The position numbers were made by a program, and so were the translations under genes. 64,000 bases of DNA from positions 103,009-167,008 of IMG/VR virus record IMGVR_UViG_3300026484_000236. One strand, given 5' to 3'. Positions 3,373-64,000 of the stretch are shown here, one piece after another (position 1 is the first letter of the stretch; every line of letters begins with the position of its first letter). This DNA comes from a virus. The notes beneath the pieces were generated by a model, which worked only from the letters and a program-made list of their open reading frames with translations, had not been told where the DNA came from and ran no database searches.

Positions 3373-3383
3373 AAGGAGAAAAT

Positions 3384-3962: not shown

Positions 3963-3979
3963 AAATTAAAGGAAAATAA

Positions 3980-4594: not shown

Positions 4595-4611
4595 AATTAT
4601 AATGATTAACA

Positions 4612-6338: not shown

Positions 6339-6352
6339 TTAAAAGGGAAAAA

Positions 6353-8069: not shown

Positions 8070-8078
8070 AGGAAATAT

Positions 8079-12282: not shown

Positions 12283-13172
12283 GTTTTATATTGGATAATA
12301 AAGAGGATCTTATAAAAAAAACAACATTGGCGTTACCAATAGGAAAACGATTTTATAAAATACTATTGTTAGCTTTTGATACAACTTGTAATTTAGATTG
12401 TAGTTACTGTTTTGATAAATTTCTTTCTGTACCAAATAATAAAGGTACTTTTACAAACGAACAGCTTTTTAAGATAATAGATAAAGTTTTTTTAGAGTAT
12501 TCTAAATCTAAATATGATAATGATGGTTTTTTTATAAGTATTTCATCTGGGGAATATTTTTATAATTTAGAAAAAATTAATAGATTTGAAATTATTATTA
12601 ATTATATGTCTGCTAAATTACATATGTTTAATAATCAAAAAATTCTATTTAAAATATTTTCTAATTTTAGTACATCTGCTTCAAAATTGGATACATTATT
12701 CAATTTTTTAAATAGTACAAATTTTAATAATTATGTTATTGATTTTACCTTTCATTTGGAACAATTATCATTAGATTTCTATATTAAAAAATTAAAAGAA
12801 TTAAAACCAGTACTGGATAACAACCCTGGTAAATTTGTATTTCTTTTAATGGTTAATACCTATACCGATAAAGAATTAGAAATATTAATAAAAATATTAA
12901 AAGAATATAATTATGATTATTATTACATATTTAATGTTTTATCTAAAGATGGAATACCTGATTGGATACCAGTTCCCAAATCAAAAATAGAAAAATTTAA
13001 AAAAATGGAAGTTAATATAGAAACTAATTTTATAAATTATAATTATATTAAAAAATTTTATTCTGTTAATAAATTTAAATTTTCTGAAAAATATAATATA
13101 TTTATTGATAATATAAATGATTATGATAGATGTTTTAAAAATGAACGATTATCGACTAGGAAAAAAATATGA
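12279..13172 (+). CDS. Radical SAM protein without GGEP motif
   Basis: 297 aa from the ATG at 12279, preferred over the in-frame ATG at 12237 because AAAAAGGAATT lies just before it and the resulting overlap is the usual ATGA. C37-x3-C41-x2-C44 (TTCNLDCSYC). The GGE motif is replaced by SISSGEYF, and no C-terminal Cys cluster remains, so SAM may be bound differently or activity reduced. Coupled to the second U32-like gene by a 4-nt overlap. Confidence 0.75.
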   Translation: MSFILDNKEDLIKKTTLALPIGKRFYKILLLAFDTTCNLDCSYCFDKFLSVPNNKGTFTNEQLFKIIDKVFLEYSKSKYDNDGFFISISSGEYFYNLEKINRFEIIINYMSAKLHMFNNQKILFKIFSNFSTSASKLDTLFNFLNSTNFNNYVIDFTFHLEQLSLDFYIKKLKELKPVLDNNPGKFVFLLMVNTYTDKELEILIKILKEYNYDYYYIFNVLSKDGIPDWIPVPKSKIEKFKKMEVNIETNFINYNYIKKFYSVNKFKFSEKYNIFIDNINDYDRCFKNERLSTRKKI

Positions 13173-14017
13173 ATTTAAATATAGCAGGAGCTTTTACATT
13201 CGATAAAAAAAAATTATTAATAATTTTTACAAAATTAAAATTATTAAAAAAATTTAATGTTAAAGTATATGATGGCCCAAATAATTGTAAATGGAATGGT
13301 GGAAGAATAAATAGAAATATTAATATTGATTTATCCGATATTGAATTCTATAATAAATTTAAAATACCTGTTTCATTTACATTTTCAAATGGAGTTATAG
13401 ATTTAAAAGATAACGTTGGTTTAGAATTATTAGAATTATTAGATCAATCATCTAAAAAATATAAAATACAAAATGAAATTACTTTAATAAACGAAGAGTT
13501 GCGATTATTTTTAAAAGATAATTATAATTTTAATTTAAAATATAGTATTACTGGACATGATTTGGAAGCTTATCCAAATTCGTTAACGCAGCAAAAATAT
13601 TTCGAGTATTATTCTAATTTAGAGACTAAGTACGATTTAATTGTTCCAAAAATGGAACATATTTTTCAAGATTGGTTTCTTAAATTAAATTTAGAAAAAT
13701 ATGAAATTATGGTAAATGATACATGTAAACCAAATTGTGAATTTTATTATGAACATTTTAAAGAAATATCTAAGGTAAATTCGAATGGTTTAAACTCAAA
13801 GGATATTGTATTAAAAATTAAAGAGGTTGAAGAATGTTGGTTATCAAATTTTAATCCAGATAATTGTTTAACTTCATGTAAGACTGGAATGGATTTGGAT
13901 AATAAATTAATAACCAAAGCTAAATCACTTGGTTATATAAATTTTAAAATATCTGGTAGAGAAAATAAATTAAATGAGTTAGAGCATGATATTTCAAAGT
14001 TTAATGAAATTAAATAA
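13169..14017 (+). CDS. U32 peptidase-like Fe-S protein, copy 2
   Basis: 282 aa. The clearer of the two U32-like proteins: VYDGPNNCKWNGGR (residues 34-46), VNDTCKPNCEFYYEH (C186, C190, H196), then C223, C233, C237 and FKISGRE (259-265). N-x2-C-x3-C-x5-H followed by a late fKisGR is characteristic of U32-family barrels. Each U32-like gene directly follows a radical SAM-type gene and overlaps it by 4 nt, so the pairs may act in sequence or as complexes. A 57-nt gap with its own AAAGGAAATT site follows. Confidence 0.5.
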   Translation: MNLNIAGAFTFDKKKLLIIFTKLKLLKKFNVKVYDGPNNCKWNGGRINRNINIDLSDIEFYNKFKIPVSFTFSNGVIDLKDNVGLELLELLDQSSKKYKIQNEITLINEELRLFLKDNYNFNLKYSITGHDLEAYPNSLTQQKYFEYYSNLETKYDLIVPKMEHIFQDWFLKLNLEKYEIMVNDTCKPNCEFYYEHFKEISKVNSNGLNSKDIVLKIKEVEECWLSNFNPDNCLTSCKTGMDLDNKLITKAKSLGYINFKISGRENKLNELEHDISKFNEIK

Positions 14018-14074
14018 ACCCAAAAATTAATATATTTTACTTTATCAAATTATAAATGAAAGGAAATTATTTGT

Positions 14075-14857
14075 ATGGAAATAAATAAACTTCAAGAGTG
14101 GGAAGTAATAAGTCAATGTAATTATAATTGTTTTTATTGTTCTTTACCAAATTATAAAATGGAATTAAACGAAGATATTTTAAAAAAATTTATGGATAAT
14201 ATTGACAAAGATTTAGAATTATTTGTATTTGGTGGAGAACCATTTATGCATAAAAAAATTAAATTTATAATAGATTATCTTAATAAAATAAAACAACCAT
14301 TCGTAATTCAAAGTAATATTAGTACTAAAAGTATCGATATTATTAAAAATAATATAAATAACTTTAACCTACAGTGTAGTGTTCATCCAACAGAAATAAC
14401 AGAAACCGATTTAATAAATAATCTTATCGAATTAAAAAGGTTAAATGATTTAAAAATACTAAATATGAAACGTATAGATATTATGTATATTGGAAAAGAA
14501 TCTATTAGGTATTATAGAATAGTTCAAAAAATTTTTCCAGAAATATGTTATTTATTGCCAATTTCTGGATTTTATAAAAACAATAAAAATTTATGTTGTG
14601 CTTTAAATAAAGAGTATAATATCATAAGATATAAAAAAATATATTCTTGGATAAAATTTGAAGAAAATTATATACTTGGGGAATCAAAGTTCAGATCTGA
14701 ACTTTGGGAAGAACAATGTTCCGGAAAGTTTAGTACCTATGGTAAACCATGTCCATATGATTATGTTCTTTGGGATTCAAAATTAAATAAATATAACTGT
14801 TGTTATAGGGAGATTACTAATGGGTACTGTACAAAAAATGGATGTTTCTGGATGTAA
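14075..14857 (+). CDS. Radical SAM protein
   Basis: 260 aa. C15-x3-C19-x2-C22 (SQCNYNCFYC), FVFGGEPFMH, and QCSVHP in the region where neighbours have LS-HP. Cys-rich end: EQCSGKF, KPCPYDYV, YNCCYREI, YCTKNGCFWM. TATAAATG lies just upstream in the short gap, so an internal promoter is possible but not shown. Confidence 0.8.
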   Translation: MEINKLQEWEVISQCNYNCFYCSLPNYKMELNEDILKKFMDNIDKDLELFVFGGEPFMHKKIKFIIDYLNKIKQPFVIQSNISTKSIDIIKNNINNFNLQCSVHPTEITETDLINNLIELKRLNDLKILNMKRIDIMYIGKESIRYYRIVQKIFPEICYLLPISGFYKNNKNLCCALNKEYNIIRYKKIYSWIKFEENYILGESKFRSELWEEQCSGKFSTYGKPCPYDYVLWDSKLNKYNCCYREITNGYCTKNGCFWM

Positions 14858-15671
14858 AGTAATACAATTTTCTTTAAGAATTACCGAACTATGCAATAGA
14901 GATTGTTCATATTGTCATTATCATTCAAATATAGATTATAATAAAAAGGATATTATGAAAATAATAGATCAGTGTGTATCATATGCTAAAGAAAAAAATA
15001 GAACACCTTTGTTTTATTTTCATGGAGGTGAACCAACATTATCGAAATATTTAATAGACTATTTAAAATATATTAAATATTTAAATTCAAATAGTATCAT
15101 TGAATTACAGACTAATTTCGATAACCCCGATCTTATAATAAGTAGTTTGGATTATATTGATTTATTAAATATAAGCTTTCATTTTGAAATTACAAATAAT
15201 AAAATTATAACATATAAAGATAAATTAAAGTATTTTAAAAATAAGAAATTATTAATTAAATTAAATTATATCGATTTAATGGTAATTAAAAATAATATAA
15301 AAGATATCATTTTTTTAAGAAAATATTTTAATTTGTTAAATATTCGAACTGAAATTACTTATAACTATTTTCAAAGTGATAGTTTTGAAAATTTAGTTAA
15401 ATCAAAAATAAAATTAACAAAACAAGAAATAGAAAAAAATAAATATTTTGCTGGGGAAATTACAGTACCCGATAATTATTTATGTGATACTTCCTATTAT
15501 ATTATTATTAATGGAAATGGAGATTTATTTAAATGTAGTTATAGTTTAACTCAGAATGCTCCAACTGGAAATATATTAAATGGGGACAACTTAAAAGATA
15601 CAATGAAAAAAAGTTTATGTGAATTTAAAACGTGTGGTTATGAATTAAGCTATTTACAAGATTTTATTTAA
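14820..15671 (+). CDS. Radical SAM protein with SPASM-like tail
   Basis: 283 aa. C25-x3-C29-x2-C32 (ELCNRDCSYC), FHGGEPTLS. The tail LCDTSYYIIINGNGDLFKC followed by PTGNIL and LCEFKTCGYE is the classic first half of a SPASM domain (C ... G-D-l-y-C ... iGNi). ATG at 14820 has AGGGAG at good spacing; an in-frame ATG six codons later is possible. Overlaps the previous gene by 38 nt. Confidence 0.83.
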   Translation: MGTVQKMDVSGCKVIQFSLRITELCNRDCSYCHYHSNIDYNKKDIMKIIDQCVSYAKEKNRTPLFYFHGGEPTLSKYLIDYLKYIKYLNSNSIIELQTNFDNPDLIISSLDYIDLLNISFHFEITNNKIITYKDKLKYFKNKKLLIKLNYIDLMVIKNNIKDIIFLRKYFNLLNIRTEITYNYFQSDSFENLVKSKIKLTKQEIEKNKYFAGEITVPDNYLCDTSYYIIINGNGDLFKCSYSLTQNAPTGNILNGDNLKDTMKKSLCEFKTCGYELSYLQDFI

Positions 15672-18042: not shown

Positions 18043-18763
18043 AACAACAAAACAATTACTTCAATACAGTATTGATAATAATCTAAAACATATACCAAGC
18101 GCTCTTAGTCAATTCTCATATCTTAAATACTTATTACCAAAGTTTGATTACAGTACGACGAATATTGTAATTGGTAAGCCTTTTGGTTCACAAGCTTATT
18201 ATATGATTTGGAAAGAACTTGGTTTAATTAAAGACCAAAAATTATCTTATGGGGTCAAACACGAAGAGTTAGATTTTATTAATTACAGCGAAGAAACTCT
18301 TGGAAATGCTTTAGGTATAGGAGCAGGTATTGCTTTAGGAAGTCCGGATAAGCTTACTTATGTTAACTTAAGCGACGGTGCTTTACAAATGGGTCCAACA
18401 TTAGAAGCTATACAATTTATAGGAAAACATCAATTAAATATGTTAATTACTATCGATTTCAATGGTATGCAATTAACGGATTCTCTTCAAAACGTTTCTG
18501 GTATTAATTGTTTTAATATAGAAGATATGTTTAAAATGTATAATATAGAAACTCGTTTTTATGATACTAAAGTTTTAAATGATTATGGAATGAATTTAGT
18601 TATAGATAATGTTTTACAAAAGCAAAAAGAAAGTAAAAAACCAGTAGTAATTATTTTTAATACTACTAAAGGTCAAGGCGTTAAAGAAATGGAAGAAGAT
18701 CCAGTACTTTGGCATTATAAAGAATTAAAAAATATTGAAGATATAACTATCTTAAATAAATAA
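18032..18763 (+). CDS. Transketolase-like N-terminal (TPP-binding) subunit
   Basis: 243 aa. NYSEETLGNALGIGAGIALG, YVNLSDGALQMGPTLEAIQF and LITIDFNGMQLTD match the TPP/Mg site of transketolases (GDG...N motif, here SDG), and NTTKGQGVKEMEEDPVLWHY matches the segment closing this domain. Only the first domain is present; the pyrimidine-binding domain is in the separate gene at 19380. Split transketolases occur in some bacteria, including in sugar-precursor clusters. The G-to-S change in the GDG motif may alter metal binding. Confidence 0.72.
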   Translation: MSHKTTKQLLQYSIDNNLKHIPSALSQFSYLKYLLPKFDYSTTNIVIGKPFGSQAYYMIWKELGLIKDQKLSYGVKHEELDFINYSEETLGNALGIGAGIALGSPDKLTYVNLSDGALQMGPTLEAIQFIGKHQLNMLITIDFNGMQLTDSLQNVSGINCFNIEDMFKMYNIETRFYDTKVLNDYGMNLVIDNVLQKQKESKKPVVIIFNTTKGQGVKEMEEDPVLWHYKELKNIEDITILNK

Positions 18764-18775
18764 AATGGAGATAAT

Positions 18776-19378
18776 ATGATATTAATAACTGGAGAAAATG
18801 GATATTTGGGAAAAGCTTTTATTAATTATTATAAATATTATTCTGGATTTAATGCTAATTTTATAACTCTTGCCGATTATTTAAAAAATCCTTGTCCAAC
18901 AAAACTTACAAAAATCATACATACTGCTGGAGTATCGGATAAAGAAGATTTTAAAAATGTTAAAAAAACTACAAATTCAATGATATTATTAACTCAGCAA
19001 TTAGTGGATTTAGCGGAACAAAATAATTTAGAATTTATATTCTTTAGCTCAGAAGCTGCTACCAATGATTTAGATATATATGGTACTTATAAAAGAGCTA
19101 TGGAATTTTATATAAAAGCTTTTTTAAAAAATTATAAATTATTAAGAATACCAAGAATTTATTCAGCCGATAGAAAAAAGGGTTTAATTAAACAACTAAG
19201 AAATAACGAAGTTCCAGAAAAAGATTATGAAAAAGAAATTGAATTTTTAGATTTAGATAATTTAATACCTCAGTTATATCATTATATATTTAAAGAAACT
19301 TCTAATAGAGTTTATTATTTTAAAAATTTAGAAACTAAAACCATTCGAAAAATAAAGGAAAGATATTTAAAGGATTAA
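18776..19378 (+). CDS. NAD-dependent epimerase/dehydratase-like protein (short SDR)
   Basis: 200 aa. ILITGENGYLGKAF is the Rossmann dinucleotide motif, IIHTAGVSD the following strand, FFSSEAA the serine-bearing strand, and YGTYKRAME the Y-x3-K catalytic pair. Truncated relative to usual extended SDRs (about 300 aa), with a small C-terminal half. It sits between the two halves of the transketolase, suggesting one sugar pathway. Confidence 0.7.
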   Translation: MILITGENGYLGKAFINYYKYYSGFNANFITLADYLKNPCPTKLTKIIHTAGVSDKEDFKNVKKTTNSMILLTQQLVDLAEQNNLEFIFFSSEAATNDLDIYGTYKRAMEFYIKAFLKNYKLLRIPRIYSADRKKGLIKQLRNNEVPEKDYEKEIEFLDLDNLIPQLYHYIFKETSNRVYYFKNLETKTIRKIKERYLKD

Positions 19379-37010: not shown

Positions 37011-40000
37011 ATGGAGAACTATACCGTAATCAAAAGAGACAATAGAATCGAACCATTTAATTCGGAAAAAATACTAACTCATTTTAAACATGCATGTGAA
37101 GGTTTAAATATGGATCCTTTTGAAATTTTTAGTAATTTCAAAATACGTCTTAAATCAGAAATGCATTCTAAAGATATTCAAACTTCAGCTATTTTTACAG
37201 CAGCTGATATGATAGATAAAAATAATCCCGATTCCCAATTCCCACCAGCTCGTCTTATGCTTCAAGATCTTTATAAAGATATTTATGGAAGTTATAATCC
37301 AGAATTTAATGCCGGTACTCTTAGAGAAAGAGCGGAAAAAGGTTATTATGATAAAGAATTATTCTTTTATTATACAGATGATGAAATAAATGAATTATCA
37401 AAATGTATTGATTACAATAATGATTTAAGATTTACTTATTTAGGATTAAATCAACTTATTAAAAAGTACAGTATTAAAAGAGATAATAAGCCTATTGAAA
37501 CTCCACAAGAAATATTCTTCTTAATACCTTTATATATTTTTGCGACTATTAAGGATAAGAAATTTCGATCTAAAATGGTTTTAGAATTTTATCAAGCTTT
37601 AGCAGTATTCGATATATTTTTACCTACTCCAGGAATGGTTGGTATTCGTACTAATATGAAAGGCTGGACTTCGTGTTTTAAACCAAACACTTTAATAAAA
37701 TTAAACGAATTTGATTTTATTGAAATAGGGGACATTAAAATAGGCGATGAAATTTTAACTTCTTTTGGGAATTATAAAAAAGTTACTAATATTATCAAAT
37801 CTTTTAAAAATAAATTTGTAAAATTAAATACTATTTTTTCAGAAGAACCTTTAGATAGTACCGATAATCATCCAGTATTTTCTATAATTAAAGAAGATAT
37901 CTTATGTGCTAGAAATCCATCTGGTGGAGATAAATTTGGAAAAATTTGTCCCATAAGCCAAGGAAATTATAAATATTGCCTTAGTACTAAAAATTATTAT
38001 AAAAATAATTGTTCAGGATTAGATAAAATTTTTGATTTATCGATAGCGGATTATAACGAGGCTGGTAATTTGGATATTGGTGATTATATTGGAATTCCTA
38101 TACCAAGAAAAATTATTTCAAATACATTAAATATTTTCGAATTAATTCAAAATGAAAAAGGTATTAAAAATAAAAAGTTTGAAGTACTAGATGAAAAAAT
38201 AGTTTCTAGAAATATTGATAAAGATCATATAAATAATGGTAATGCTGGAATAAATAAATTAATAAAACCAATTAATAATTTTATTACTATTGATAATAAT
38301 TTAATGGAAGTTTTTGGTTGGTTTTTAGCAGAAGGTTCATCATATAAAAAAGGACAAACCTTTATATTTACAGTAAGTACGGACGAGGTTAATTATTTAG
38401 AATTTATAAACGAAACTATTTATAAACATTTTGGAATTTATGGAAATATTAGTATTAATTACGAACCAACTAAATATGCAGTTCTTACTTTTAATTCTAA
38501 AATTCTTAAAACCTTTTTTAATTTAATTCTTAATAATATTAAAGATCAATATTATAAAAAAGATGGCTATAATTTTAATAATATTTTATTATTTCAAGAA
38601 CCGGAATTACAAAAATATTTTTTAAAAGGTGCTTATTTAGGAGATGGAAGTTTTAATAAAACTTCTGGAACTTTAAAAATATCTTTAAAAGATAAAAAAT
38701 TTATAGAACTTTTAAAAATAATGCATTTAAGAAATGGTCATAAAATTAATACAAATATTGAAAAAAATAATGTATTAAAAAATCCAAATTCCAGAGATTC
38801 GTATAATATTAATATTAAAGCTTCATTAGAAAAAGAATTTATAAAATTCGTACAAAAACATACCAATGGTTACGATAAAGATTTTTATGATAATTTTAAT
38901 TATAAAGAAAATATTCATTATAATGGTGGTTTCTTTTTAGAAGATTTTTATTTTACTAAAATTACTAAAAAAGAAGAATATTTAGATAAAGATACAGAAG
39001 TAATTGATATTACAGTGGAGGACGACCATACTTTTATCGCAGGTGATTATGCAGTCCATAATTGCTCAGGTCTTGATTTTGGAGATAGTATAGAAGCTAT
39101 TGCAAATGGTAGTAAATCTCTTTATAAATTAATTACTAAACTTCGAGCAGGTATTGGAGCAAATATAGGAAACATTAGAGGTTTAGGAGCAGATATTGGA
39201 AATGGTTTTGAAACACATACTGGTATAACTCCTTATGCAAAAGCTAATGAAGCAATTTCTAGAAGTAGTACTCAACCAAATTCTGGACGTTCCGGAGCAA
39301 TTACAAATTACTATCCTTTCTTCCATATTGAGATAGAAGATATTCTTCAACTTAAAAATAACAAAGGTTCTGACGAAGCTTCAGTTAGACATTCAGATCA
39401 TGCAATTATATTTGATCCTGTGTTTAGAAAACGCCTTGATAATGACGAAGATATTTCATTATTTTATATAAATGATGTTGGAGAATTATATAGTCTTATT
39501 GGGACTTCGGAATTCGAAGCAGAGTATATTAAATATGAAAAACTAGCTGAAGAAGGGAAAATATTTAGAAAAGTTATTAAAGCATCTTCTTTAGAAGATA
39601 GATATTTTCATGAAAGATATATTACTGCTAGAAATTATAAAGTAAATGCAAAGGCTATGCAAGAACACAGTGCATTTAATTTACCAGTATATACTTCGAA
39701 TTTATGTACAGAGATAGCCTTACCAAGTTTTCCAGATGAGGATTATATTATTAATGTTCTAGATCAAAATAATTATCAATTATTTATAGAAGGTCTTTAT
39801 AAAGATGGTAAATGGTATCAACTATATAGATTTATTAGATATGGTGTTATTGATGAAAAAAATGCTTGGGTAGTAGATATCCATTTAAGTTTCTTAGATA
39901 ATTCTGATAATTCCAATAAATTTACTTTAAATTTTGGAGAAATATTTTCTTGTATTCTTGGTGGAATTAACTTTGGTAATCTTAGTACAGATCCAAAAGT

Positions 40001-40901
40001 ACGTAGACAACAGTTCGAAAAAAATATGTATCTTATGGTTTATTTCTTAGACGAAATGATAGATAAACAGGATTATCAGGATATTAAACCATTTGAAAAG
40101 TTTACTAAAAATAGAAGAGCTCTTGGAATTAGTCCAGGAAATTATTTCTATATGTTAGCTAAGCATGGATATAACTACGATACTCCAAAAGCTAGAGCAT
40201 TAACAGCAGTTGTATTCGAAGAGTTTCTTTATTATGGTTTAAAAGCTAGTAATGAAATAGCTAAGGAAAAAGGATCATGTAATTATTACCAAGATACTAA
40301 ATACTCTAAAGGTCAATTACCAATAGACACTTATGAAAGAAATGTGGATTCTTTATACTCTTTAAAATCTTTACCAATGTCTCAAGCAATTAGTATTACT
40401 TTGGACATGTGGAAACTTCTTAGAAAAGATATTCAAAAATATGGTTTAAGAAATAGTACTTTACTTACAGCAGTTCCTAGTTCGAATTCTAGTAGACCTG
40501 GAAACATGATCTCAGGAATTAATCCCCCACAGGGTACAGAATATAGTATCGAAGATAACAATATGAAAATTACGGCTATTCTTCCTAATTCAAAAGAATA
40601 TGATTCATTTTATGAATATAATTCCGCTTGGAATTTAGATATTATAGAATACTGGAAACTTATTGCTATTATGCAAAAATTTATTGACCAAGCAATTAGT
40701 ATTAATGAGTATGTTGATTTTACAAAATATCCTGATGGAAAAATTCCAAAATCCGAAGTAATCAGAAGAGATTTATTTACAGAGTTGTTTGGAATTAAAA
40801 CATTGTATTATGCTAAAACTAAAACAGATAATGATACAGAAGAACTCCAAGAAGTTATTTCAGATGATGAAGGATGTTCTGGTGGTGGATGTACGTTATA
40901 G
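37011..40901 (+). CDS. nrdA: Class Ia ribonucleotide reductase large subunit with intein
   Basis: 1296 aa, of which residues 222-684 are an intein, leaving an 833-aa enzyme of normal size. Residues 1-95 look like an ATP cone (YTVIKRDNRIEPFNSEKI). Redox Cys C685 (the +1 residue of the intein) and C981, thiyl Cys C899 in SNLCTEIALP, and a C-terminal C1289-x4-C1294 arm are all present; the C685-C899 distance (214) equals that of E. coli NrdA. Reduces ribonucleotides with NrdB. An extra 60 residues between C899 and C981 is unusual. Heads a unit with a ClpP-like gene and nrdB. Confidence 0.95.
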   Translation: MENYTVIKRDNRIEPFNSEKILTHFKHACEGLNMDPFEIFSNFKIRLKSEMHSKDIQTSAIFTAADMIDKNNPDSQFPPARLMLQDLYKDIYGSYNPEFNAGTLRERAEKGYYDKELFFYYTDDEINELSKCIDYNNDLRFTYLGLNQLIKKYSIKRDNKPIETPQEIFFLIPLYIFATIKDKKFRSKMVLEFYQALAVFDIFLPTPGMVGIRTNMKGWTSCFKPNTLIKLNEFDFIEIGDIKIGDEILTSFGNYKKVTNIIKSFKNKFVKLNTIFSEEPLDSTDNHPVFSIIKEDILCARNPSGGDKFGKICPISQGNYKYCLSTKNYYKNNCSGLDKIFDLSIADYNEAGNLDIGDYIGIPIPRKIISNTLNIFELIQNEKGIKNKKFEVLDEKIVSRNIDKDHINNGNAGINKLIKPINNFITIDNNLMEVFGWFLAEGSSYKKGQTFIFTVSTDEVNYLEFINETIYKHFGIYGNISINYEPTKYAVLTFNSKILKTFFNLILNNIKDQYYKKDGYNFNNILLFQEPELQKYFLKGAYLGDGSFNKTSGTLKISLKDKKFIELLKIMHLRNGHKINTNIEKNNVLKNPNSRDSYNINIKASLEKEFIKFVQKHTNGYDKDFYDNFNYKENIHYNGGFFLEDFYFTKITKKEEYLDKDTEVIDITVEDDHTFIAGDYAVHNCSGLDFGDSIEAIANGSKSLYKLITKLRAGIGANIGNIRGLGADIGNGFETHTGITPYAKANEAISRSSTQPNSGRSGAITNYYPFFHIEIEDILQLKNNKGSDEASVRHSDHAIIFDPVFRKRLDNDEDISLFYINDVGELYSLIGTSEFEAEYIKYEKLAEEGKIFRKVIKASSLEDRYFHERYITARNYKVNAKAMQEHSAFNLPVYTSNLCTEIALPSFPDEDYIINVLDQNNYQLFIEGLYKDGKWYQLYRFIRYGVIDEKNAWVVDIHLSFLDNSDNSNKFTLNFGEIFSCILGGINFGNLSTDPKVRRQQFEKNMYLMVYFLDEMIDKQDYQDIKPFEKFTKNRRALGISPGNYFYMLAKHGYNYDTPKARALTAVVFEEFLYYGLKASNEIAKEKGSCNYYQDTKYSKGQLPIDTYERNVDSLYSLKSLPMSQAISITLDMWKLLRKDIQKYGLRNSTLLTAVPSSNSSRPGNMISGINPPQGTEYSIEDNNMKITAILPNSKEYDSFYEYNSAWNLDIIEYWKLIAIMQKFIDQAISINEYVDFTKYPDGKIPKSEVIRRDLFTELFGIKTLYYAKTKTDNDTEELQEVISDDEGCSGGGCTL
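37674..39062 (+). other. Intein with LAGLIDADG endonuclease in nrdA
   Basis: 463 aa, in frame within nrdA. Starts Cys-FKPNTLIKL, then IGDIKIGDEIL (block A), TDNHPVFS (block B), LAGLIDADG-type motifs FGWFLAEGS (about 434-442) and FLKGAYLGDGSF (about 535-546), VEDDHTFIAGDYAVHN (blocks F/G) and a Cys at +1. All splice residues are present, so it should be active. The insertion is directly before the catalytic Cys, so the enzyme is inactive until splicing. Confidence 0.93.
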
Positions 40902-50523: not shown

Positions 50524-51243
50524 ATGAATATTTTTGAAAAAATAAAAAGTTATTTTATAGAAGAAGAACAAGAAGAAGAACAAGAAGAACTCGATTATCT
50601 TAAACCAATGGATCTTGGTTCAAATAATTATAAAATAGAAATACCAGAAATAAATATAAACAAAGAAGCTATATTTAATAAAGATCTTAAAACAATATTT
50701 ATTATGGATGATTTCGATGGAATGGCTGAATTAATCAAGGATGAATTATATCAGGCAAGATGCTGTAATGTAAAAGAATATTTTAATATAATAGTAAGTA
50801 CTGGAATATTTGCTGGTTTTAGTATAAGAAATTTATTAATGAGTAATCCAGATTTAATTATAGATATAGCTTTTTTAGATATTACTTTAGGTGGTATTAT
50901 TAATGGTGAAGAATTAGATGGTATAGATATTGCAATTCTTTTAAAAGAACGTAATCCAGATTGTTTAATTAAATTTGTAACTGGACATACTCTTAATAAA
51001 CATAATCCGGAAATATTTAAATTTATTCATAAATTTGAAACCACCTTTAAAGTAAAAATGGATGAAATCGAAGAAACTTCAAGTAGTAATAATGGAGATA
51101 TTAAAATTTATAAACATGTTATAAATAAAACTAGTAATCGTAAAGAATTAATAGAATTAACACTACATAATTATTTTGACAAATTTATTATTGGTAAACA
51201 AGACGGAGTCTTTGAAAACACCAAATACGATTTAGTAAATTAA
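50524..51243 (+). CDS. Response-regulator-like receiver protein
   Basis: 239 aa. After an acidic N-terminal 45 residues, a receiver-type fold: TIFIMDDFDGMAEL (acidic pair D62, D63), DIAFLDITLGG with likely phosphate acceptor D119, and IKFVTGH with T153 as the switch residue. An insertion lies between strand 3 and helix 3. No DNA-binding output domain is seen; the last 70 residues are unassigned. Gene lies 9 nt before the kinase. Stand-alone receivers often act through protein contact. Confidence 0.65.
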   Translation: MNIFEKIKSYFIEEEQEEEQEELDYLKPMDLGSNNYKIEIPEININKEAIFNKDLKTIFIMDDFDGMAELIKDELYQARCCNVKEYFNIIVSTGIFAGFSIRNLLMSNPDLIIDIAFLDITLGGIINGEELDGIDIAILLKERNPDCLIKFVTGHTLNKHNPEIFKFIHKFETTFKVKMDEIEETSSSNNGDIKIYKHVINKTSNRKELIELTLHNYFDKFIIGKQDGVFENTKYDLVN

Positions 51244-51252
51244 GGATACAAT

Positions 51253-52728
51253 ATGGAAACCTCTAAAATGGGAAGTTTATATCATGCTTCTGGATCAATA
51301 TTTTTTAAGTATCTTGGTTTAATAACTATATATACTTTATTAATGGGAGCAGTACTTGGTAATAATTTTCACAATATAGTTCACATGTATAAAGAAAATT
51401 TAAAAAACACCGTAGTAAAAACAATTGAAGAATATCACGAAATAGATTTACAACATATTTGTACTATTTCAAACTGTTCTCAAATTGGTTTTATAAATAG
51501 AAATAAATCATACGTATTAAAAGATGGCAAATTAATAAAAAATAATAATCGTAAAATAATTAATATTTATTGGAAATTGAATAAAATTCCAATAATAGAA
51601 AATACTGTTAATACAGCTTTTAACGAAGACCTACATAAAAATATTATAATAACTTTACCAAAATATAATTTGTATTTATCAAGTAATAGTTATTATACGT
51701 TAAGCGAATTACTAAAAGGGTATTTTTATATTTATGTTATATTTATAATACCTATTACTTTTATATTTTTTATATATGAATTTAAATTATCAAGACGAAA
51801 AGCTTTAGATGTTATAAATACTAGCAGTATTCTTAGAGAAAAGAATATGCAAATACTTACTGAAAATATACATCATGAATTAAATACTCCAGTAGCTATT
51901 ATTCAAGGATCTGTTTTAAAAATAGAACAATCTTTAAAAAGACAATATGATATTTCGAAAAATTGTTTTAAAACATGTGCATTAACCGAACAATTTAAAG
52001 GAATAGATTTTGACATGATTTATTCGAGTATTGATCAAATTGGTACAGTACTAGAAAGAATGAGTAATTTTAAAAATCTCAAATACAGTAATGGTAATAA
52101 AACATTATTTGATATTTTAAATTATTCGGCTAATTCTATGAGTATTTATAAAGCTTCTTATTTTGAAATTATAATTGATCCAGCATTTGAGGAATGGAGT
52201 CTTAAACATGGAGATGGATATTTAAAAAATGCTGATTTATTAAATATAATTTCTAATCATTTAAGAAATAGTATAGAAGCCAGTGCCACAAAAATACATC
52301 TACAGCTAAAAGTATCTGATACTAAAAATGAAAAAATAAAATTAATACATATATTTATAATTGATAATGGGACTGGTCTTAGAGATCCAGATACTGGATT
52401 ATTACTATCTCCATCAAAATATCAAAATATTTTTAAAGATTATTACAGTTCTAAAAATAAAAATGGAAAATCTAAAATTTATAATTCAAAAGGTTATATT
52501 TTAGATTTAGTACATATTTTAAAAACGAAATTTACTAAAACAAATCGATTTTTAAAAATAGCACCAGAACCAGTTAAAGAAGATAACGCAAGAGGAGTAG
52601 GATTATATTTAAATAAGGAATTATTACGGGATAATCATGGAAATTTAAAATTAAGGGAAACCTCCGAAAAAGGAACTGTTTTTGAAATTACGATTCCAGG
52701 AATTAAAGCAAAAAAAGAAAATTATTAA
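51253..52728 (+). CDS. Sensor histidine kinase
   Basis: 491 aa. Two membrane spans (about 18-37 and 156-175) enclose a 115-residue periplasmic sensor domain without recognised fold. H box NIHHELNTP with H208, N box SNHLRNSIEAS with N339, G1 box IIDNGTGL (371-376), G2 box ARGVGLYLNK (446-455), and the final strand GTVFEITIPG are all intact. So this is a complete, probably active kinase with a receiver encoded just upstream. Phage-encoded histidine kinases are rare. The ATP-lid region is long (380-445). Confidence 0.85.
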   Translation: METSKMGSLYHASGSIFFKYLGLITIYTLLMGAVLGNNFHNIVHMYKENLKNTVVKTIEEYHEIDLQHICTISNCSQIGFINRNKSYVLKDGKLIKNNNRKIINIYWKLNKIPIIENTVNTAFNEDLHKNIIITLPKYNLYLSSNSYYTLSELLKGYFYIYVIFIIPITFIFFIYEFKLSRRKALDVINTSSILREKNMQILTENIHHELNTPVAIIQGSVLKIEQSLKRQYDISKNCFKTCALTEQFKGIDFDMIYSSIDQIGTVLERMSNFKNLKYSNGNKTLFDILNYSANSMSIYKASYFEIIIDPAFEEWSLKHGDGYLKNADLLNIISNHLRNSIEASATKIHLQLKVSDTKNEKIKLIHIFIIDNGTGLRDPDTGLLLSPSKYQNIFKDYYSSKNKNGKSKIYNSKGYILDLVHILKTKFTKTNRFLKIAPEPVKEDNARGVGLYLNKELLRDNHGNLKLRETSEKGTVFEITIPGIKAKKENY

Positions 52729-52742
52729 CATAAGGTTGAAAT

Positions 52743-53120
52743 ATGAAAAAACTATTTTTGGGCAAACCAACATTATTTTTTTATATATTTTTATTATTAA
52801 ATTCTAATTTAATCGCTCGAGAAAGGATTAAAAATATTAATAAAGATTATTCAAATGGTACTTGTACTGTACTTTTTAAAGAATATGATATAGATCCAGA
52901 AGTTCGTTCCCCTAAAGGATGGTATCGTATTTATAAAGAAGGAGCTCTAACAAATTATTTACATATACACTACTTAAGTACGAAAAATGAAAAAAAGTTA
53001 TCGGATTGTCTAATTAATAATGGTTTTAAAATAGAAAAATACCAAAGAAGTATTGGAGATAAAAAAAATAAAAGCTCTATAATACAGAATAGAAAGGAGA
53101 ATAATTATGAAGATAATTAA
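52743..53120 (+). CDS. Small secreted protein with two cysteines
   Basis: 125 aa. Signal-peptide-like N-terminus (KLFLGKPTLFFYIFLLLNSN, then LIARE). Mature part has two Cys (NGTCTVLF and LSDCLINN) that could form a disulphide in the periplasm. C-terminus is polar and basic. No family recognised. Ends 14 nt inside the outer-membrane protein gene, so the two are co-translated. Confidence 0.6.
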   Translation: MKKLFLGKPTLFFYIFLLLNSNLIARERIKNINKDYSNGTCTVLFKEYDIDPEVRSPKGWYRIYKEGALTNYLHIHYLSTKNEKKLSDCLINNGFKIEKYQRSIGDKKNKSSIIQNRKENNYEDN

Positions 53121-54297
53121 AATTATTTTGGTATTAAGCATAGTTGTTCAGTTAGCTATGGCATTCGAATATAAGAATACTAATTATTTAGAAGTGGTAT
53201 ATGGAACTATCACAAGTTCGGAAAATAACGGTGAATATATTGGCTCTCGTCATTTAATAGATATAACGACATTTAATGATTTTATATTTGATAATTTTAG
53301 TATTACTAGTACTATATATTTCTCTAAGTATTCTGAAAGTTATTCTAGAACGTATAATCATATAATTCAGGAAGGGACTCAATTAGAATTTTCAGAATTG
53401 GCTTTAAATACATTTATAACCAACGATGATATATTAACTATTGGGTTATTATCTTTTAAGTATGGAAGTATGTCGGAATATTCTAAAATAGGACTAGAAC
53501 AATCGGATGCTTTATATACTATGTATTATTTAACATTACCTGGAGTATTTTATACTCATCATTTTGATAATGGAAAAATACAACTGGGGTATGCGGAACG
53601 AACAAAATACGAATTATCACCAACAAATCGATATGAACATACTGTACCAGGATCAAACATTGCCTTTTTATTTGCTAGTAAAAATTATTTAAACAATGAT
53701 TTAAAATTTAAATTTAATACGAGTATTTCTGACATAGTTTATGAAAATATATCTGGGGACGAAGATGTTAGTTTAGGTTATTTATATATGTTTGGGATTG
53801 GAATATCCTATGATACTCCTGATTATTCTTTATATGGTATTATAGCCGGTTCAAAAACAGATTTCGATGGAACTAAATTAACACCAAATGAACAACCATT
53901 AATTCTCCCACCAGGATTTACCGATCCAACTAGTCCAGGAGCTTCGTTCACAAACGAAGGTTCTAGATATGGTTATAGTATTTTTTTAGGAGCTAAAAAA
54001 ATAAATTATTTACCAATTATTAAAAAAGATATTTATTATGGAATTGAATATTTTCATAGTAGTAAATATTGGGTATCGGCTGTAACAGATGAGTATAATA
54101 AAGATAGTTATTCTTGGGGAGATCTTGGGAATATTTATAAATTTTATACAGGCGTTAGTTTAACGCCAAAATTAAATATTGGTATTAATTTTAAGTACTC
54201 TGATATTAATTATCAAAAATTAAAAGGTGGTAACGCTGTAGTAAAAACAGATCAATACGATAAAAGAATATATTTTAGATTAGATTATTTATTTTAA
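53107..54297 (+). CDS. Outer-membrane beta-barrel protein (DUF3373-like)
   Basis: 396 aa. Signal peptide MKIIKIILVLSIVVQLAMA with likely cleavage after AMA. Mature part is a string of amphipathic strands of alternating polar/hydrophobic residues, aromatic-rich, ending with Phe (YFRLDYLF) as outer-membrane proteins do. The last 120 residues (DIYYGIEYFHSSKYWVSAV, GDLGNIYKFYTGVSL) resemble DUF3373 barrels of Campylobacterota. Phage-encoded barrels can block superinfection or change host surface; with the kinase and receiver the cassette may sense and alter the envelope. Confidence 0.72.
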   Translation: MKIIKIILVLSIVVQLAMAFEYKNTNYLEVVYGTITSSENNGEYIGSRHLIDITTFNDFIFDNFSITSTIYFSKYSESYSRTYNHIIQEGTQLEFSELALNTFITNDDILTIGLLSFKYGSMSEYSKIGLEQSDALYTMYYLTLPGVFYTHHFDNGKIQLGYAERTKYELSPTNRYEHTVPGSNIAFLFASKNYLNNDLKFKFNTSISDIVYENISGDEDVSLGYLYMFGIGISYDTPDYSLYGIIAGSKTDFDGTKLTPNEQPLILPPGFTDPTSPGASFTNEGSRYGYSIFLGAKKINYLPIIKKDIYYGIEYFHSSKYWVSAVTDEYNKDSYSWGDLGNIYKFYTGVSLTPKLNIGINFKYSDINYQKLKGGNAVVKTDQYDKRIYFRLDYLF

Positions 54298-56412: not shown

Positions 56413-57966
56413 ATGGCTAAATTAATTGATAATTTAATCCTCGAGAACTATGATATGTTTACGAAAGATCACTCGAATCTTTTCGAAGAAGCAAAAACAC
56501 CAGCTGAGATCATCTTTGATGATTCTTACTTTGATATGTATGTATCAAGTCTTACTAAAGGTCTAGAAGAAAGCGTTGTTGCTAAAATTCTTCCAGTACT
56601 TGATCGTGAACGTAAAATGTTTATTGAGGAAAGTTCAGCTCTTTTAACTTCTCCAGAAGCTATTGCATATGCTGTAACTACTATTCCAATGCTTATTAAC
56701 ATCTATGCTGAGCCACAACTTAGCAAAATCGTTACAACAGTTCCAACTGATATGCCAACTCTTTCTATTTCTAGAATCAAATGGGTATCTAAAGTAATTG
56801 ATGAAAAAGGTGGAGTTACTGAGTACATGTTCCCAACTGCTACTTCAATGATTCGTCCAGATTTCAAACAATTCAAAGTTGCTCAATCTGCAAATCTTTA
56901 TAGCGAACTTGGTATTGCTAAAGGTGATTTCAGACTTTCTAAAAGAAATTTCAAAGTTGTAAGTATCGACGTTGTTGTTGATGATGGTACAAACACTACT
57001 GTTGAAAATGTTCCAGTAACTGCTATCGCAGGTGCTCGTGGTAACTTTACAGTTGATTCTTTTGTTGTTCCAGGTGTAACTGGTGGTGTTTATAAACTTC
57101 AAGGTTCTGTTGACTTTGAATCAGGTTCAATTACATCTTCTGTAATTACTATTGAACCAGGTGACAAAACTGTAACTGAAGATACTATTGAAATTAAATT
57201 CAGACTTTTTGGTAATGGTAATGGTCGTGGTGTTGTTAAGTCAGCTCCAAAACAAGAAATCATTGACGTTAATGCAGATATCGAAGATTCTTTCGAAGTT
57301 GAAAATATTGAAGAAGTAATTCAAGATTGGTCAGCAATTTATAAACTTGATATCATTTCAGAGCTTAAAAACTTTGTAAAAGGTCAAATCAAGTTAAATA
57401 GAGATTTCGAGATTGCTGAACTACTTGAATCTAATATTCCATTTGCTCAATCAATTGGTCAATATAAAGAAGTAGACTTCTCAAGATTTGGATCTGCTGA
57501 TGGTTTCAAACCTTCAAATATCCAAGATATCTTCAAAAATATTGTTCCTACAATTATGTCTCTAGTAGAGAAAATGCGTAAAACAAACAATATGGAAGTT
57601 CAATATCTTGCTTGTGGTGTTGATGTAGCTGTAGTACTTAAATCTCTTCAAGAGTTCGCTGTATCTATGGAAAAAATGAATGGTAACTATTCTGTTCAGG
57701 GTGGAGTTCAATCAGGTTTCAATAAACTTGAAATCGTTGAGTCTTATGCAATTGCTGATGATCTATTACACTTAGTTCTTACTGCACCTGCTACTAACCA
57801 AAGTTCACTTGTTGAAGTACTATTTAAACCTCTTTATATCATTACTGAGACTACTAATAGTATCAAACGTACATTTATCAAATCAAGAACTTGGATTGGT
57901 ATAGTTCGTCAAGAAGGTATTGGTACAATCCGTATCAAAAATTACGAAGGTTTCGTTAACGTATAA
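56413..57966 (+). CDS. Probable major capsid protein
   Basis: 517 aa. Beginning (residues 1-45) is an acidic helical part with NLFEEAK, a possible maturation site like that of T4 gp23. ALLTSPEAIAYAVTTIPMLI, YAEPQLSKIVTTVP, ISRIKWVSKVIDEKGG and the end RTFIKSRTWIGIVRQEG fit an HK97-fold capsid protein of T4-like/jumbo phages. Codon choice differs sharply from the neighbours: many ATC, TTC, AAC and CGT codons, so base composition is visibly less A/T-rich, as expected for the most highly expressed gene. A stem (AAATACTTAA) lies in its leader. Confidence 0.75.
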   Translation: MAKLIDNLILENYDMFTKDHSNLFEEAKTPAEIIFDDSYFDMYVSSLTKGLEESVVAKILPVLDRERKMFIEESSALLTSPEAIAYAVTTIPMLINIYAEPQLSKIVTTVPTDMPTLSISRIKWVSKVIDEKGGVTEYMFPTATSMIRPDFKQFKVAQSANLYSELGIAKGDFRLSKRNFKVVSIDVVVDDGTNTTVENVPVTAIAGARGNFTVDSFVVPGVTGGVYKLQGSVDFESGSITSSVITIEPGDKTVTEDTIEIKFRLFGNGNGRGVVKSAPKQEIIDVNADIEDSFEVENIEEVIQDWSAIYKLDIISELKNFVKGQIKLNRDFEIAELLESNIPFAQSIGQYKEVDFSRFGSADGFKPSNIQDIFKNIVPTIMSLVEKMRKTNNMEVQYLACGVDVAVVLKSLQEFAVSMEKMNGNYSVQGGVQSGFNKLEIVESYAIADDLLHLVLTAPATNQSSLVEVLFKPLYIITETTNSIKRTFIKSRTWIGIVRQEGIGTIRIKNYEGFVNV

Positions 57967-60458: not shown

Positions 60459-60532
60459 TAAAGTTATTCTTATTTTAAAGTAATTATACCCATGTGAAAC
60501 TAAATATTAATAATTTATTATTAAGGTTGAAT

Positions 60533-61255
60533 ATGTCTAATCAATTATTTTTAAAAAATAAATATCGTACTTGGTATTTTAACATAATAAATAATGCTAA
60601 ACGAAGGAAACTGAATTATTATGCTTATTTGGAGTGCCATCACATAATCCCATCTTCTTTTAAGAAATTAAAATTAAACGAATTTAATTTTAATTTTAAA
60701 AATAATTTAGTTTTTTTAACGGCCAAAGAACATTATATATGCCATTTATTATTAACTAAATTTTGTACAGGTCAAAATAAACATAAAATGATATATGCTT
60801 TTAACTATATGAAAACTTCCCCAAATAATAACGGTGAGCGAGAAAAAGTAACTGGAATTATGTTTCAGTACAATAAAATAAAAGTTAATAAATTACAAAA
60901 GAAAAATAAATTATATGGTAAAGATAATGGTTCATATGGGAATATATGGGTATATCATTTAGAGAAAGAAGAAAATTTAAAAATACCAAAAGTATTTTTA
61001 AATGATTATATATCTTTAGGTTATATTAAAGGCAGGTGTATCGATTTTAACAAACGTAAAAAAGATATTGAAAAAGACTTTCTAAAAAAACAAAAAAAAT
61101 TAGATAACAAATTAAGGAAGTACAAAATATTTAAACAAAAATTTAAATATTTTCAACAATATGGTTGGGAATGTACTAAACAAAAATTTAAATTAAATTA
61201 CACGAGACAAAATTTAATACATCATTTTAATAATTTTGAATTAAATAAAGCTTGA
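60533..61255 (+). CDS. HNH homing endonuclease
   Basis: 240 aa from the ATG at 60533 behind AAGG; an in-frame GTG at 60494 lacks a site. YLECHHIIPSSF, NLVFLTAKEHYICHLLL form the HNH core (H-H, N, H) of phage homing endonucleases. The Lys-rich C-terminal half probably binds DNA. Fourth free-standing homing-type gene in the window; precedes tail-type genes. Confidence 0.8.
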   Translation: MSNQLFLKNKYRTWYFNIINNAKRRKLNYYAYLECHHIIPSSFKKLKLNEFNFNFKNNLVFLTAKEHYICHLLLTKFCTGQNKHKMIYAFNYMKTSPNNNGEREKVTGIMFQYNKIKVNKLQKKNKLYGKDNGSYGNIWVYHLEKEENLKIPKVFLNDYISLGYIKGRCIDFNKRKKDIEKDFLKKQKKLDNKLRKYKIFKQKFKYFQQYGWECTKQKFKLNYTRQNLIHHFNNFELNKA

Positions 61256-61283: not shown

Positions 61284-61682
61284 ATGACTACAAAACTAAC
61301 AGATTCGTTTATAAACGATTTTAAAAATGAATTAAATAATCGTATTAATAGTTCAGAACTTCTAATCCAATTTTTTACTGGAGTTCAACCAACTAGAGAA
61401 GAAATGAATACTTTTCTAAATGGTAATAGAATTTCTGATAAACTTGGAGAAGTTTCTGTAACTTTAGTAAATGGAGAATTTGACAGCGTTATTGACGGAG
61501 TAGATCCAATCTCGTTTACACCAGATGTATCCGGAGAGTGTACTTGGTGTACAGTTGCACCAAAAGATTCTTTAAACGAAATAGTAATATTAAATGATAT
61601 GTCTAACCATATAGTAATTCAAGATTATAATCTAGATACAACTATTGAAAATAATTTGCAAAAACTATTTATAAAAATATAA
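61284..61682 (+). CDS. Unknown small protein in the tail gene block
   Basis: 132 aa, acidic, no recognised family. N-terminal helix (TDSFINDFKNELNNRI) then beta-type sequence with two close Cys (GECTWCTV). Placed 10 nt before the propeller protein; may be a tail accessory protein. Confidence 0.5.
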   Translation: MTTKLTDSFINDFKNELNNRINSSELLIQFFTGVQPTREEMNTFLNGNRISDKLGEVSVTLVNGEFDSVIDGVDPISFTPDVSGECTWCTVAPKDSLNEIVILNDMSNHIVIQDYNLDTTIENNLQKLFIKI

Positions 61683-61692
61683 GGAATAAATA

Positions 61693-63531
61693 ATGAATTT
61701 AAATAAAAATATACAAGCCAATGCTTTTATGGTGAATAATCCTTTTAGTACTACTTTTCCAGATTCTTTTATTGGGGAAGGATTAAAGGATATTTATTTA
61801 CCAGATTTTGTAAATCAAAGAATTACTGTAATTGTTAGTATTAATAATACAGAAGCGGTTAACATAAATGAGAAAATTAATGGTAAAATGGCAAATGGTT
61901 CATTAAGATACCTTAATACTTTAATAATTCCAGAAATAACTATGACGGAAACTTCGGAAATATCTTTTAGCATTACGAATGAATCATTCGTAAATAATTA
62001 TAACGTTGATGATGTAACAGATTCAGGTATTATTAAATCTGGAGATTTAGATATTACTATTAATGCTCGTACCGATGCTCCAGAGTTGAATTATGTTATT
62101 AATGGAGTTTTTAGTACTATTGGTACATCTGGAAATATGGTACTAGATATTACTAAACCATTTTCAATTATCCCAATCGATAATAAAGAAATTTATTTAA
62201 ATTTTAGAGATCCTGAAGTTGGTGATAGTCTATCTGCTTTAAAATTTAATAACTATAATAATATTATTAATTTATTCAGTACTGATAAAGAAAATGAAAA
62301 TTTTATTCTTAAAAAAACTCAATTTTATAATAGTATTAAACTTCAAGCTAGTGATGCTCAAAGTAAAGACTATTTTGGGCGTTCTGTATGTAATACCGAT
62401 AAATATATTGTTGTTGGGGCACCTAATGAAGATACCACTGAAACCGATGCTGGATCAGTTTATATTTATGATATTGAAAAAGATTTAGAAATAAAAATTC
62501 AAGCTAGTAATGCTCAAAAGTCGGACTATTTTGGATACACTGTATCTATTTCAAATAATACTTTAGTTGTTGGAGCATATGGAGAAGATACTACTGGATC
62601 GTCTGCTGGATCAGTTTATATTTATGATTTAACGAACTTTGATATTGATAGTATCAAAGCATCTGAAATAAAAATTCAATCTAATGATATTCGAGCTAAT
62701 GACTATTTTGGATACAATGTAACTATTTCAAATGATACTTTAGTTGTTGGAGCATATGGAGAAGATGTTGCTGGAGCAGTTTATATTTATGATTTAACGA
62801 ACTTTGATATTGATAGTATCAAAGCATCTGAAATAAAAATTCGATCTAGTGATGCACAATCTGGTGATTATTTTGGATTCAATGTATCTATTTCAAATGA
62901 TACTTTAGTTGTTGGAGCATATGCAGAAGATGCTGGGACTACTGATGCTGGAGCAGTTTATATTTATGATTTAACGGACTTTGATATTGATAGTATCCAA
63001 GCATCTGAAATAAAAATTCATGCTAGTGTGGTGCAAACACGTGGTTATTTTGGATACAATGTATCTATTTCAAATGATACTTTAGTTGTTGGAGCACATG
63101 CAAACAGTACTAATGGGACACTTGCCGGATCAGCTTATATTTATGATTTAACGAACTTTGATATTGATAGTATCAAGGCATCCGAAATAAAAATTATCTC
63201 GAGCGATATAAATATCCGGGACCAGTTTGGATACAATGTAGCTATTTTAAATGATACTTTAGTTGTTTCGTCGCCTTGGCAAGATACTAATGGGACGGAT
63301 GCTGGGTCGGTTTATATGTATGATTTAACGAAATTTGATAGTGATAGTATCATGGCATCTGAAATAAAAATTCAAGCTATTGATGGTCAAGGGATCGATT
63401 ATTTTGGATTCAATGTATCTATTTCAAATGATACTTTAGTTGTTGGAGCATATGTAGAAGATACTGGAACGGTTGATGCTGGATCAGTTTATATTTATGA
63501 TATTAATGTGTTAAAAAATAATTCTAAATAG
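61693..63531 (+). CDS. Seven-bladed FG-GAP propeller protein, probable tail adhesin
   Basis: 612 aa. Residues 1-215 are beta-rich and unassigned. From about 216 to the end there are seven copies of KI-x-A/S-S-D-A-x4-D-YFGYNVSISNDTL, VVGAY, EDTxGTDAGSVYIYD, the FG-GAP (integrin alpha-type) blade; seven blades close a propeller. Copies 3-6 share long DNA stretches (period about 170-185 nt), so copy number can change by recombination. No signal peptide. Position before a repeat-containing fibre-like gene points to host-surface recognition. Confidence 0.72.
   Translation: MNLNKNIQANAFMVNNPFSTTFPDSFIGEGLKDIYLPDFVNQRITVIVSINNTEAVNINEKINGKMANGSLRYLNTLIIPEITMTETSEISFSITNESFVNNYNVDDVTDSGIIKSGDLDITINARTDAPELNYVINGVFSTIGTSGNMVLDITKPFSIIPIDNKEIYLNFRDPEVGDSLSALKFNNYNNIINLFSTDKENENFILKKTQFYNSIKLQASDAQSKDYFGRSVCNTDKYIVVGAPNEDTTETDAGSVYIYDIEKDLEIKIQASNAQKSDYFGYTVSISNNTLVVGAYGEDTTGSSAGSVYIYDLTNFDIDSIKASEIKIQSNDIRANDYFGYNVTISNDTLVVGAYGEDVAGAVYIYDLTNFDIDSIKASEIKIRSSDAQSGDYFGFNVSISNDTLVVGAYAEDAGTTDAGAVYIYDLTDFDIDSIQASEIKIHASVVQTRGYFGYNVSISNDTLVVGAHANSTNGTLAGSAYIYDLTNFDIDSIKASEIKIISSDINIRDQFGYNVAILNDTLVVSSPWQDTNGTDAGSVYMYDLTKFDSDSIMASEIKIQAIDGQGIDYFGFNVSISNDTLVVGAYVEDTGTVDAGSVYIYDINVLKNNSK
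62337..63510 (+). repeat. Seven tandem FG-GAP coding repeats
   Basis: Near-identical words such as GATTTAACGAACTTTGATAT and TTTCAAATGATACTTTAGTT recur every 170-185 nt. Middle copies are closest, outer copies diverged, as expected from unequal exchange. Confidence 0.8.
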
Positions 63532-63540
63532 GAACAAATA

Positions 63541-64000
63541 ATGTATTATTTAATAAATGAATCTGGGACTTCTATACAAGTCCCAGATTGGCAAAAAATA
63601 TATTATAAAGATTTGACATTAATTGGTAAAAAAACTATGAATTGGAATGAACCAATCCAGGAAAATTTTTTAAAAATTGCCGATCGTCTTAAAAGAATAG
63701 AAGATTTATTAGCAATACCAGATATTAATATTTCTAGTAATTTAGGATTATTAAATTTATTAGATTCGCCAGTCGATGCTTTATTTGTATCCAATCAAGA
63801 AGACATTAATATTTCTAGTAATTTAGGATTATTAAATTTATTAGATTCTCCAGTTAATGCTTTATTTGTATCCAATCAAGAAGACATTAATATTTCTAGT
63901 AATTTAGGATTATTAAATTTATTAGATTCTCCAGTTAATGCTTTATTTGTATCTAATCAAGAAGACATTAATATTTCTAGTAATTTAGGATTATTAAATT
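63541..64000 (+). CDS. Tail-fibre-like protein with 27-aa repeats, 3' end outside window
   Basis: ATG at 63541 follows AGGAACAAATA; the frame stays open to the window end, so at least 153 aa. MYYLINESGTSIQVPDWQKI is followed by an ENFLKIADRLKRIEDLL helix and then tandem units of 27 residues (DINISSNLGLLNLLDSPV, then NALFVSNQE). Such repeats build fibrous trimeric shafts. Same gene block as the propeller protein. Confidence 0.6.
   Translation, partial: MYYLINESGTSIQVPDWQKIYYKDLTLIGKKTMNWNEPIQENFLKIADRLKRIEDLLAIPDINISSNLGLLNLLDSPVDALFVSNQEDINISSNLGLLNLLDSPVNALFVSNQEDINISSNLGLLNLLDSPVNALFVSNQEDINISSNLGLLN
63721..64000 (+). repeat. 81-nt tandem repeat, at least three full copies
   Basis: Copies start at 63721, 63802, 63883 and 63964 (cut by the window end). 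Copies 2 and 3 differ by only a few bases, copy 1 slightly more. In frame (27 codons). Confidence 0.9.

Follow-up and report, generated by a model that had tools for sequence, protein, structure and literature searches.

A large uncultured phage ends its 167,008-base contig with a 64-kb stretch (hereafter the window, i.e. the whole 64,000 nucleotides analysed) that holds a complete open reading frame of 612 amino acids, composed over most of its length of repeats of one unit. The frame lies on the plus strand (61693–63531), opens with an ATG and closes with a stop codon at 63529–63531. A reading of the sequence alone had proposed that its product is a seven-bladed FG-GAP propeller, possibly acting as a receptor-binding protein, and that repeats recognizable at the DNA level would permit exchange between blades and so change binding specificity. 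The locus raises two questions: does the wheel close, and what could its repetition serve in a virus?

The Pfam family FG-GAP_2 (PF14312) matches seven stretches of the protein (whole-protein E 5.7e-96), with a score of 315 bits against a curated Pfam cut-off of 23. Each of the seven repeats is also above the family cut-off in a six-frame search of the whole 167,008-base contig, which returned no FG-GAP_2 repeat beyond those seven. They are confined to residues 215–611 (62335–63528). In the DNA the unit measures 177 nt, with shorter units of 165 and 156 nt (Table 1), and the copies are 65–81% identical in an ungapped comparison; the internal blades, once codon-aligned, are 72–90% identical. 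The FG of the cage motif is found in all seven blades and its GA in six of them. The N-terminal ~205 residues have no Pfam match and no PHROG match of weight; searched alone, this domain gave no match at E 1 among named phages and nothing meaningful among PDB sequences (best E 0.1).

Table 1. Parts of the propeller gene, its cassette and the capsid gene upstream, in window coordinates; percentages are identities to the window.
Feature	Coordinates	Strand	Remarks
Major capsid protein gene	56413..57966	+	phrog_20655, major head protein, E 2.1e-6
Cassette gene A	61284..61682	+	132-aa small protein; directly upstream of propeller gene in L004 (61%) and L005 (26%)
N-terminal domain (~residues 1–205) and linker	61693..62334	+	homologues in L004 (72%) and L005 (44%)
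Blade 1	62335..62490	+	without long 3-4 linker; more diverged
Blade 2	62491..62667	+	
Blade 3	62668..62832	+	loop 2-3 shorter by 12 nt
Blade 4	62833..63009	+	
Blade 5	63010..63186	+	
Blade 6	63187..63363	+	loops most diverged of all; cage-motif GA lost
Blade 7 and C-terminus	63364..63528	+	
Cassette gene C	63541..64000, runs past contig end	+	conserved ~58-aa head, then 27-aa repeats

The protein was modeled with AlphaFold2 from an alignment of three natural homologues, and the model is of high confidence over residues ~205–603, where most 10-residue blocks score 80–95 and the remainder mainly 66–79. AlphaFold2 gave no confidence for the N-terminal domain in the full-length protein, and this domain folded alone has a pLDDT of 30. 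Foldseek and VIA-align searches with the model matched complete integrin-alpha propellers. The best VIA match was the integrin alphaM headpiece, which aligns with residues 210–609 of the model over 352 residues (Z 37.4, rmsd 3.1 Å); sequence identity in the structural matches to integrin propellers is 17–21%. Since a confident model aligns to complete integrin propellers, ring closure is well supported, and we predict a closed seven-bladed integrin-type propeller at residues ~205–603 by model confidence, or 210–609 by alignment. The seven FG-GAP_2 repeats, the AlphaFold2 model and the fold matches, which include the structure prediction that the sequence-only reading had called for, all agree with the fold it had proposed. 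The likeness to the integrin-alpha propeller (PF14312) comprises seven FG-GAP_2 repeats, the FG-GAP cage and a superposable model. The phage protein differs by its low identity and by its lack of a DxDxDG-type calcium motif: a pattern search of the protein found none, and the strand 1-2 turn of the blades, where this motif would lie, is about three residues long. Because this motif is absent, we assign an integrin-type fold and do not file the protein as a calcium-binding integrin-like propeller. Calcium-dependent integrin-like binding was rejected for the same reason.

Propeller folds have precedents in phages. As described in the available excerpts of one article (PMC4901313), virion receptor-binding proteins with propellers include the phi11 RBP with five blades, phiKZ gp131C with seven (role unproven) and PRD1 P2. 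These resemble the present protein in that a virion protein is presumed to contact the host through a propeller; the likeness is one of description, FG-GAP repeats not being named for them in those excerpts. A survey of highly repetitive propellers lists, in the part available, archaeal and bacterial examples of the FG-GAP type (PMC9218822). A tblastn search of 50,697 named phage records with the propeller protein gave matches in 16. The earlier remark that such propellers are rare in phage tails is thus roughly right for this subfamily, but the case is not unprecedented.

Six of the 16 records were inspected individually. The S-TIM5 protein (AEZ65754 / H6WG31), annotated as virion structural protein and packaging, is like ours an FG-GAP_2 protein with seven blades from a tailed phage, and was also matched in a viral protein structure library (Foldseek E 1e-22) that yields further phage and giant-virus FG-GAP proteins; it differs in having no comparable long N-terminal domain and in its blades, which are not homogenised. 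The S-MbCM6 homologue is a giant protein labelled gp8, that of Vibrio phage nt-1 is an FG-GAP repeat protein, and the S-SCSM2R copy adjoins genes annotated as tail fibre. In the IMG/VR locus L002, a protein with a tail fibre PHROG match (E 2.6e-72) holds 14 FG-GAP_2 repeats in two groups of seven. Seven blades recur in the window, in the related contigs L004 and L005, in S-TIM5 (first repeat partial) and twice in L002; no clean seven was obtained for nt-1 (six matches, one of them negligible at E 6.7) or for C48C1 (15 fragments). Because L004, L005 (whose propeller is only 30% identical) and the 7+7 of L002 all keep seven, blade number is held at that value.

The propeller gene is the middle one (B) of a three-gene, operon-like cassette, A-B-C, that follows the major capsid gene; 10 nt separate A from B and 9 nt separate B from C. 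Gene A has no Pfam or PHROG match. In gene C, the repeats are near-identical inside each genome and differ between genomes, being of 27 aa in the window (63541–64000) and in L004 (17638–18039) and of 22 aa in L005 (8164–8520), while the head is conserved. Directly upstream of the cassette, at 60494–61255, lies a homing-endonuclease-like gene (phrog_655, E 6e-20) that is 86% identical in L004 and might favour replacement of the cassette region.

Relatives were found by a scan with the window capsid protein, which retrieved five related contigs (those of L004–L008); searches with cassette gene C, the N-terminal domain or blade DNA patterns recovered only the contigs of L004 and L005 and no further family member. 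The capsid proteins of L004 and L005 are 99.4% and 98.6% identical to that of the window, and both contigs keep the A-B-C order behind the capsid gene. Cassette identities in L004 and L005 are lower, namely 68 and 30% for the propeller and 81 and 67% for the head of C (see Table 1 for A and the N-terminus of B). Among other L004 genes, the counterpart of the 59145 gene is 68% identical, the kinase 77%, the protease 95% and the capsid 99%; the divergence of the cassette therefore stands out against capsid and protease only, since other accessory genes are at 68–77%. FG-GAP_2 repeats number seven in L004, seven in L005, two in L006 and none in L007 and L008, the last three being counts on contigs that may be incomplete. 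In L006, where the capsid is 82% identical, the two blades are spread over two overlapping short frames (18627–19263) and adjoin a gene of 350 aa whose N-terminus is similar. This remnant-like piece is possibly a decaying or a newly forming propeller gene.

In the window as in L004 and L005, the cassette follows immediately on the major capsid gene, a position that would also suit a head-decoration adhesin, i.e. a capsid-surface ornament in a Hoc-like role whose targets are glycans of the host or the environment, as opposed to a tail receptor-binding protein. The gene downstream in L013 (16617) has a weak match to a head-category virion structural PHROG, in line with this view; PHROG matches of downstream neighbour genes in relatives are weak throughout. 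Gene order alone cannot tell head from tail for this cassette. Against a head location, the homologous module of L002 sits in a tail-fibre-type protein and that of S-SCSM2R stands beside genes annotated as tail fibre, and we regard head decoration as unlikely.

The internal blades show concerted evolution. A codon alignment was made of blades 2–6 from the window and L004, and in the maximum likelihood tree the five window blades and the five L004 blades fall on opposite sides of one branch with 100/100 support. In these two genomes, a blade is closer to its neighbours in its own genome than to the blade at the same position in the sister phage, so that repeats within the gene are more alike than counterparts across genomes. 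Three of the L004 blades (2–4) are identical, and their number and identity may be affected by what we presume to be short-read assembly.

Codon usage at unchanged residues reveals where this homogeneity resides. Among pairs of window blades 2–6 that carry the same amino acid, two different codons are used in 10 of 328 framework pairs and in 22 of 66 loop pairs; the corresponding values for L004 blades 2–6 are 0 of 402 and 14 of 156. In the loops, agreement between some codons for the same amino acid may be a coincidence that followed replacement. The framework identity is not a matter of codon constraint, because 41 of 160 same-amino-acid framework pairs differ between the window and L004. 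Three more distant FG-GAP proteins served as controls and the contrast is absent from them, with loop versus framework differences of 28/53 v 88/183 in L005 (all seven blades), 173/569 v 502/1418 in L002 (all 14) and 39/114 v 99/297 in S-TIM5 (six of seven blades). These five sets of blades make up the test; nt-1, C48C1, S-SCSM2R, L003, S-MbCM6 and Phosso stand outside it. The loops tested were 4-1, which joins strand 4 to strand 1 of the following blade, and 2-3, which joins strands 2 and 3; their limits were set on the alignment before the model and are 1–2 residues off the model's strands.

Amino acid diversity follows the same partition. In window blades 2–6, 16 of 18 loop columns are variable in amino acid, versus 16 of 41 framework columns (Fisher 5e-4; 5 of 59 circular shifts reach this value). 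The variable loops lie on one face, since they border the FG and GA residues of the cage, and this face, which bears loops 4-1 and 2-3, is the one that we take to be ligand-binding by the integrin convention; diversity is thus concentrated in ligand-face loops. Synonymous variation is also higher in the loops (8 of 18 columns versus 4 of 41; Fisher p 0.0045), an excess that is suggestive under the stricter circular-shift control, in which 9 of 59 shifts reach it. Over blades 2–7 of the window, pN/pS is 0.93 in the loops and 1.45 in the rest, the framework value being higher only because the framework has almost no synonymous change. With a loop ratio of 0.93, positive selection is unsupported by pN/pS, and selection cannot be separated from loop-directed exchange because the loops are raised in both kinds of change. 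Our claim is therefore limited to a homogenised framework combined with diverse loops and does not extend to proven positive selection.

The same pattern bears on a simpler account, in which the blades are the product of an ordinary recent amplification from one blade and their differences reflect drift without any recognition function. Repetitive propellers are known to amplify continuously, according to the part of the survey available (PMC9218822), and the identity of L004 blades 2–4 fits such a process. Amplification alone predicts neither the concentration of variable columns on one face (16/18 versus 16/41) nor the extra codon differences at unchanged loop residues, and we hold it to be quite improbable as the sole explanation. 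Exchange between blades, by comparison, is supported by the clustering of internal blades by genome together with the homogenised framework codons. The suggestion that DNA-level repeats permit blade exchange is thereby extended, the exchange itself being a process that we infer from the clustering.

Taken together, these observations lead us to favour, with modest confidence, a virion adhesin, most likely a tail or baseplate receptor-binding protein, diversified by exchange between blades. The receptor-binding role is plausible in view of the structural-gene neighbourhood, of the homologous modules in tail-fibre and virion proteins and of the diversity of loops on one face. The seven repeats, the match of fold, the gene order of the cassette, the grouping of blades by genome and the contrast between framework and loops are results of the analysis; we infer the virion location, the position in the tail, the contact with a ligand and the exchange mechanism. 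In this scheme, the N-terminal ~205 residues would anchor the protein to the particle, and the C-terminal ~400 residues form the closed seven-bladed FG-GAP/integrin-type propeller that the model and the fold match support. Loops 4-1 (leading to the next blade) and 2-3 would provide the contact surface on the ligand face. The framework DNA would be kept near-identical by exchange among the blades of one gene, through gene conversion or unequal crossing-over, and loop differences would be retained or imported, resulting in changing loops on a scaffold that stays at seven blades. A non-virion product, associated with the envelope or released, that masks receptors or blocks superinfection would agree with the common occurrence of FG-GAP proteins on bacterial surfaces and with other envelope-directed genes of this phage (a histidine kinase and a DUF3373 protein), but inspection of the N-terminus by eye shows no evident signal peptide and both the structural-gene neighbourhood and the relatives in tail-fibre or virion proteins argue against it, making it very improbable.

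Phages are known to alter their host-binding proteins by several means, tail-fibre swapping and reverse-transcriptase mutagenesis among them. A diversity-generating retroelement was considered as source of the loop variation and provisionally set aside: RVT_1 was found neither in the phage's own contig nor in the five relatives, contigs that may be incomplete, and the own contig holds no second, template-like copy of the blades. For the virion adhesin proposed here, a further and rather doubtful possibility is that it works as a diversity generator free of reverse transcriptase, in which exchange would keep seven frameworks identical in DNA so that loop cassettes could move between blades with the fold intact, and perhaps also between co-infecting phages; gene C would evolve likewise, and the system would be a phage counterpart of the fungal HNWD proteins. 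In the available excerpts on Podospora HNWD, concerted repeat evolution is described together with diversifying selection at codons of top-face loops (PMC2873952). Both systems combine a propeller with units that are homogenised and top loops that are diverse; HNWD, as those excerpts present it, is a eukaryotic NLR with WD40 repeats in variable number, whereas the phage protein has FG-GAP repeats in a constant number of seven. Tandem domain repeats also occur as BACON domains in tail-associated proteins of crAss-like phages, for which host binding has been proposed (PMC6949934, available text); these are Ig-like and do not form a closed propeller, and terms for recombination or homogenisation are absent from that text.

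Among open-licence PMC papers, judged by title and abstract start, our searches found none on an FG-GAP propeller protein in a phage or on a phage propeller with gene conversion; within these searches, no phage propeller has been reported as a mosaic shaped by concerted evolution. If our proposal is correct, a propeller with a homogenised framework and differing ligand-face loops would represent another route to new host binding, and a strategy of fungal recognition receptors would have arisen independently in a virus. It would also offer a plausible role for the FG-GAP propellers that recur in structural proteins of large phages.

Several other features of the window were noted. No tRNA genes were found in it, and membership of an anti-phage defence family was dropped as PADLOC gave no match. 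The promoter scan is uninformative, because it returned 47 promoter-like sites where 51 are expected by chance. The histidine kinase (HATPase_c), the DUF3373 protein (above the Pfam cut-off) and a receiver-like ORF, recognized by eye, that precedes the kinase are clustered at 50524–54297; no relative of the DUF3373 protein was identified among 54 pattern matches in bacterial genomes. The large subunit of ribonucleotide reductase (37011–40901) has an intein-like interruption with a LAGLIDADG domain. A leader of approximate form M-x-(L/I)EINK is shared by otherwise unlike proteins of the window (36184, 49392, 54631 and 55451), L004 (7520, 11658 and 21164) and L005 (10850), and it could be capsid-targeting or protease-cleaved, given the prohead protease at 46638. 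Finally, a run of radical-SAM genes occupies 1525–15671, where all six ORFs tested match PF04055 (E <= 1.2e-4, three of them above the cut-off). It adjoins a Cys-rich ORF of 192 aa (3384–3962, no Pfam match) and a tail-fibre-like gene (2–1486), and such a cluster, which would be unusually large for a phage, could serve to modify peptides or proteins.
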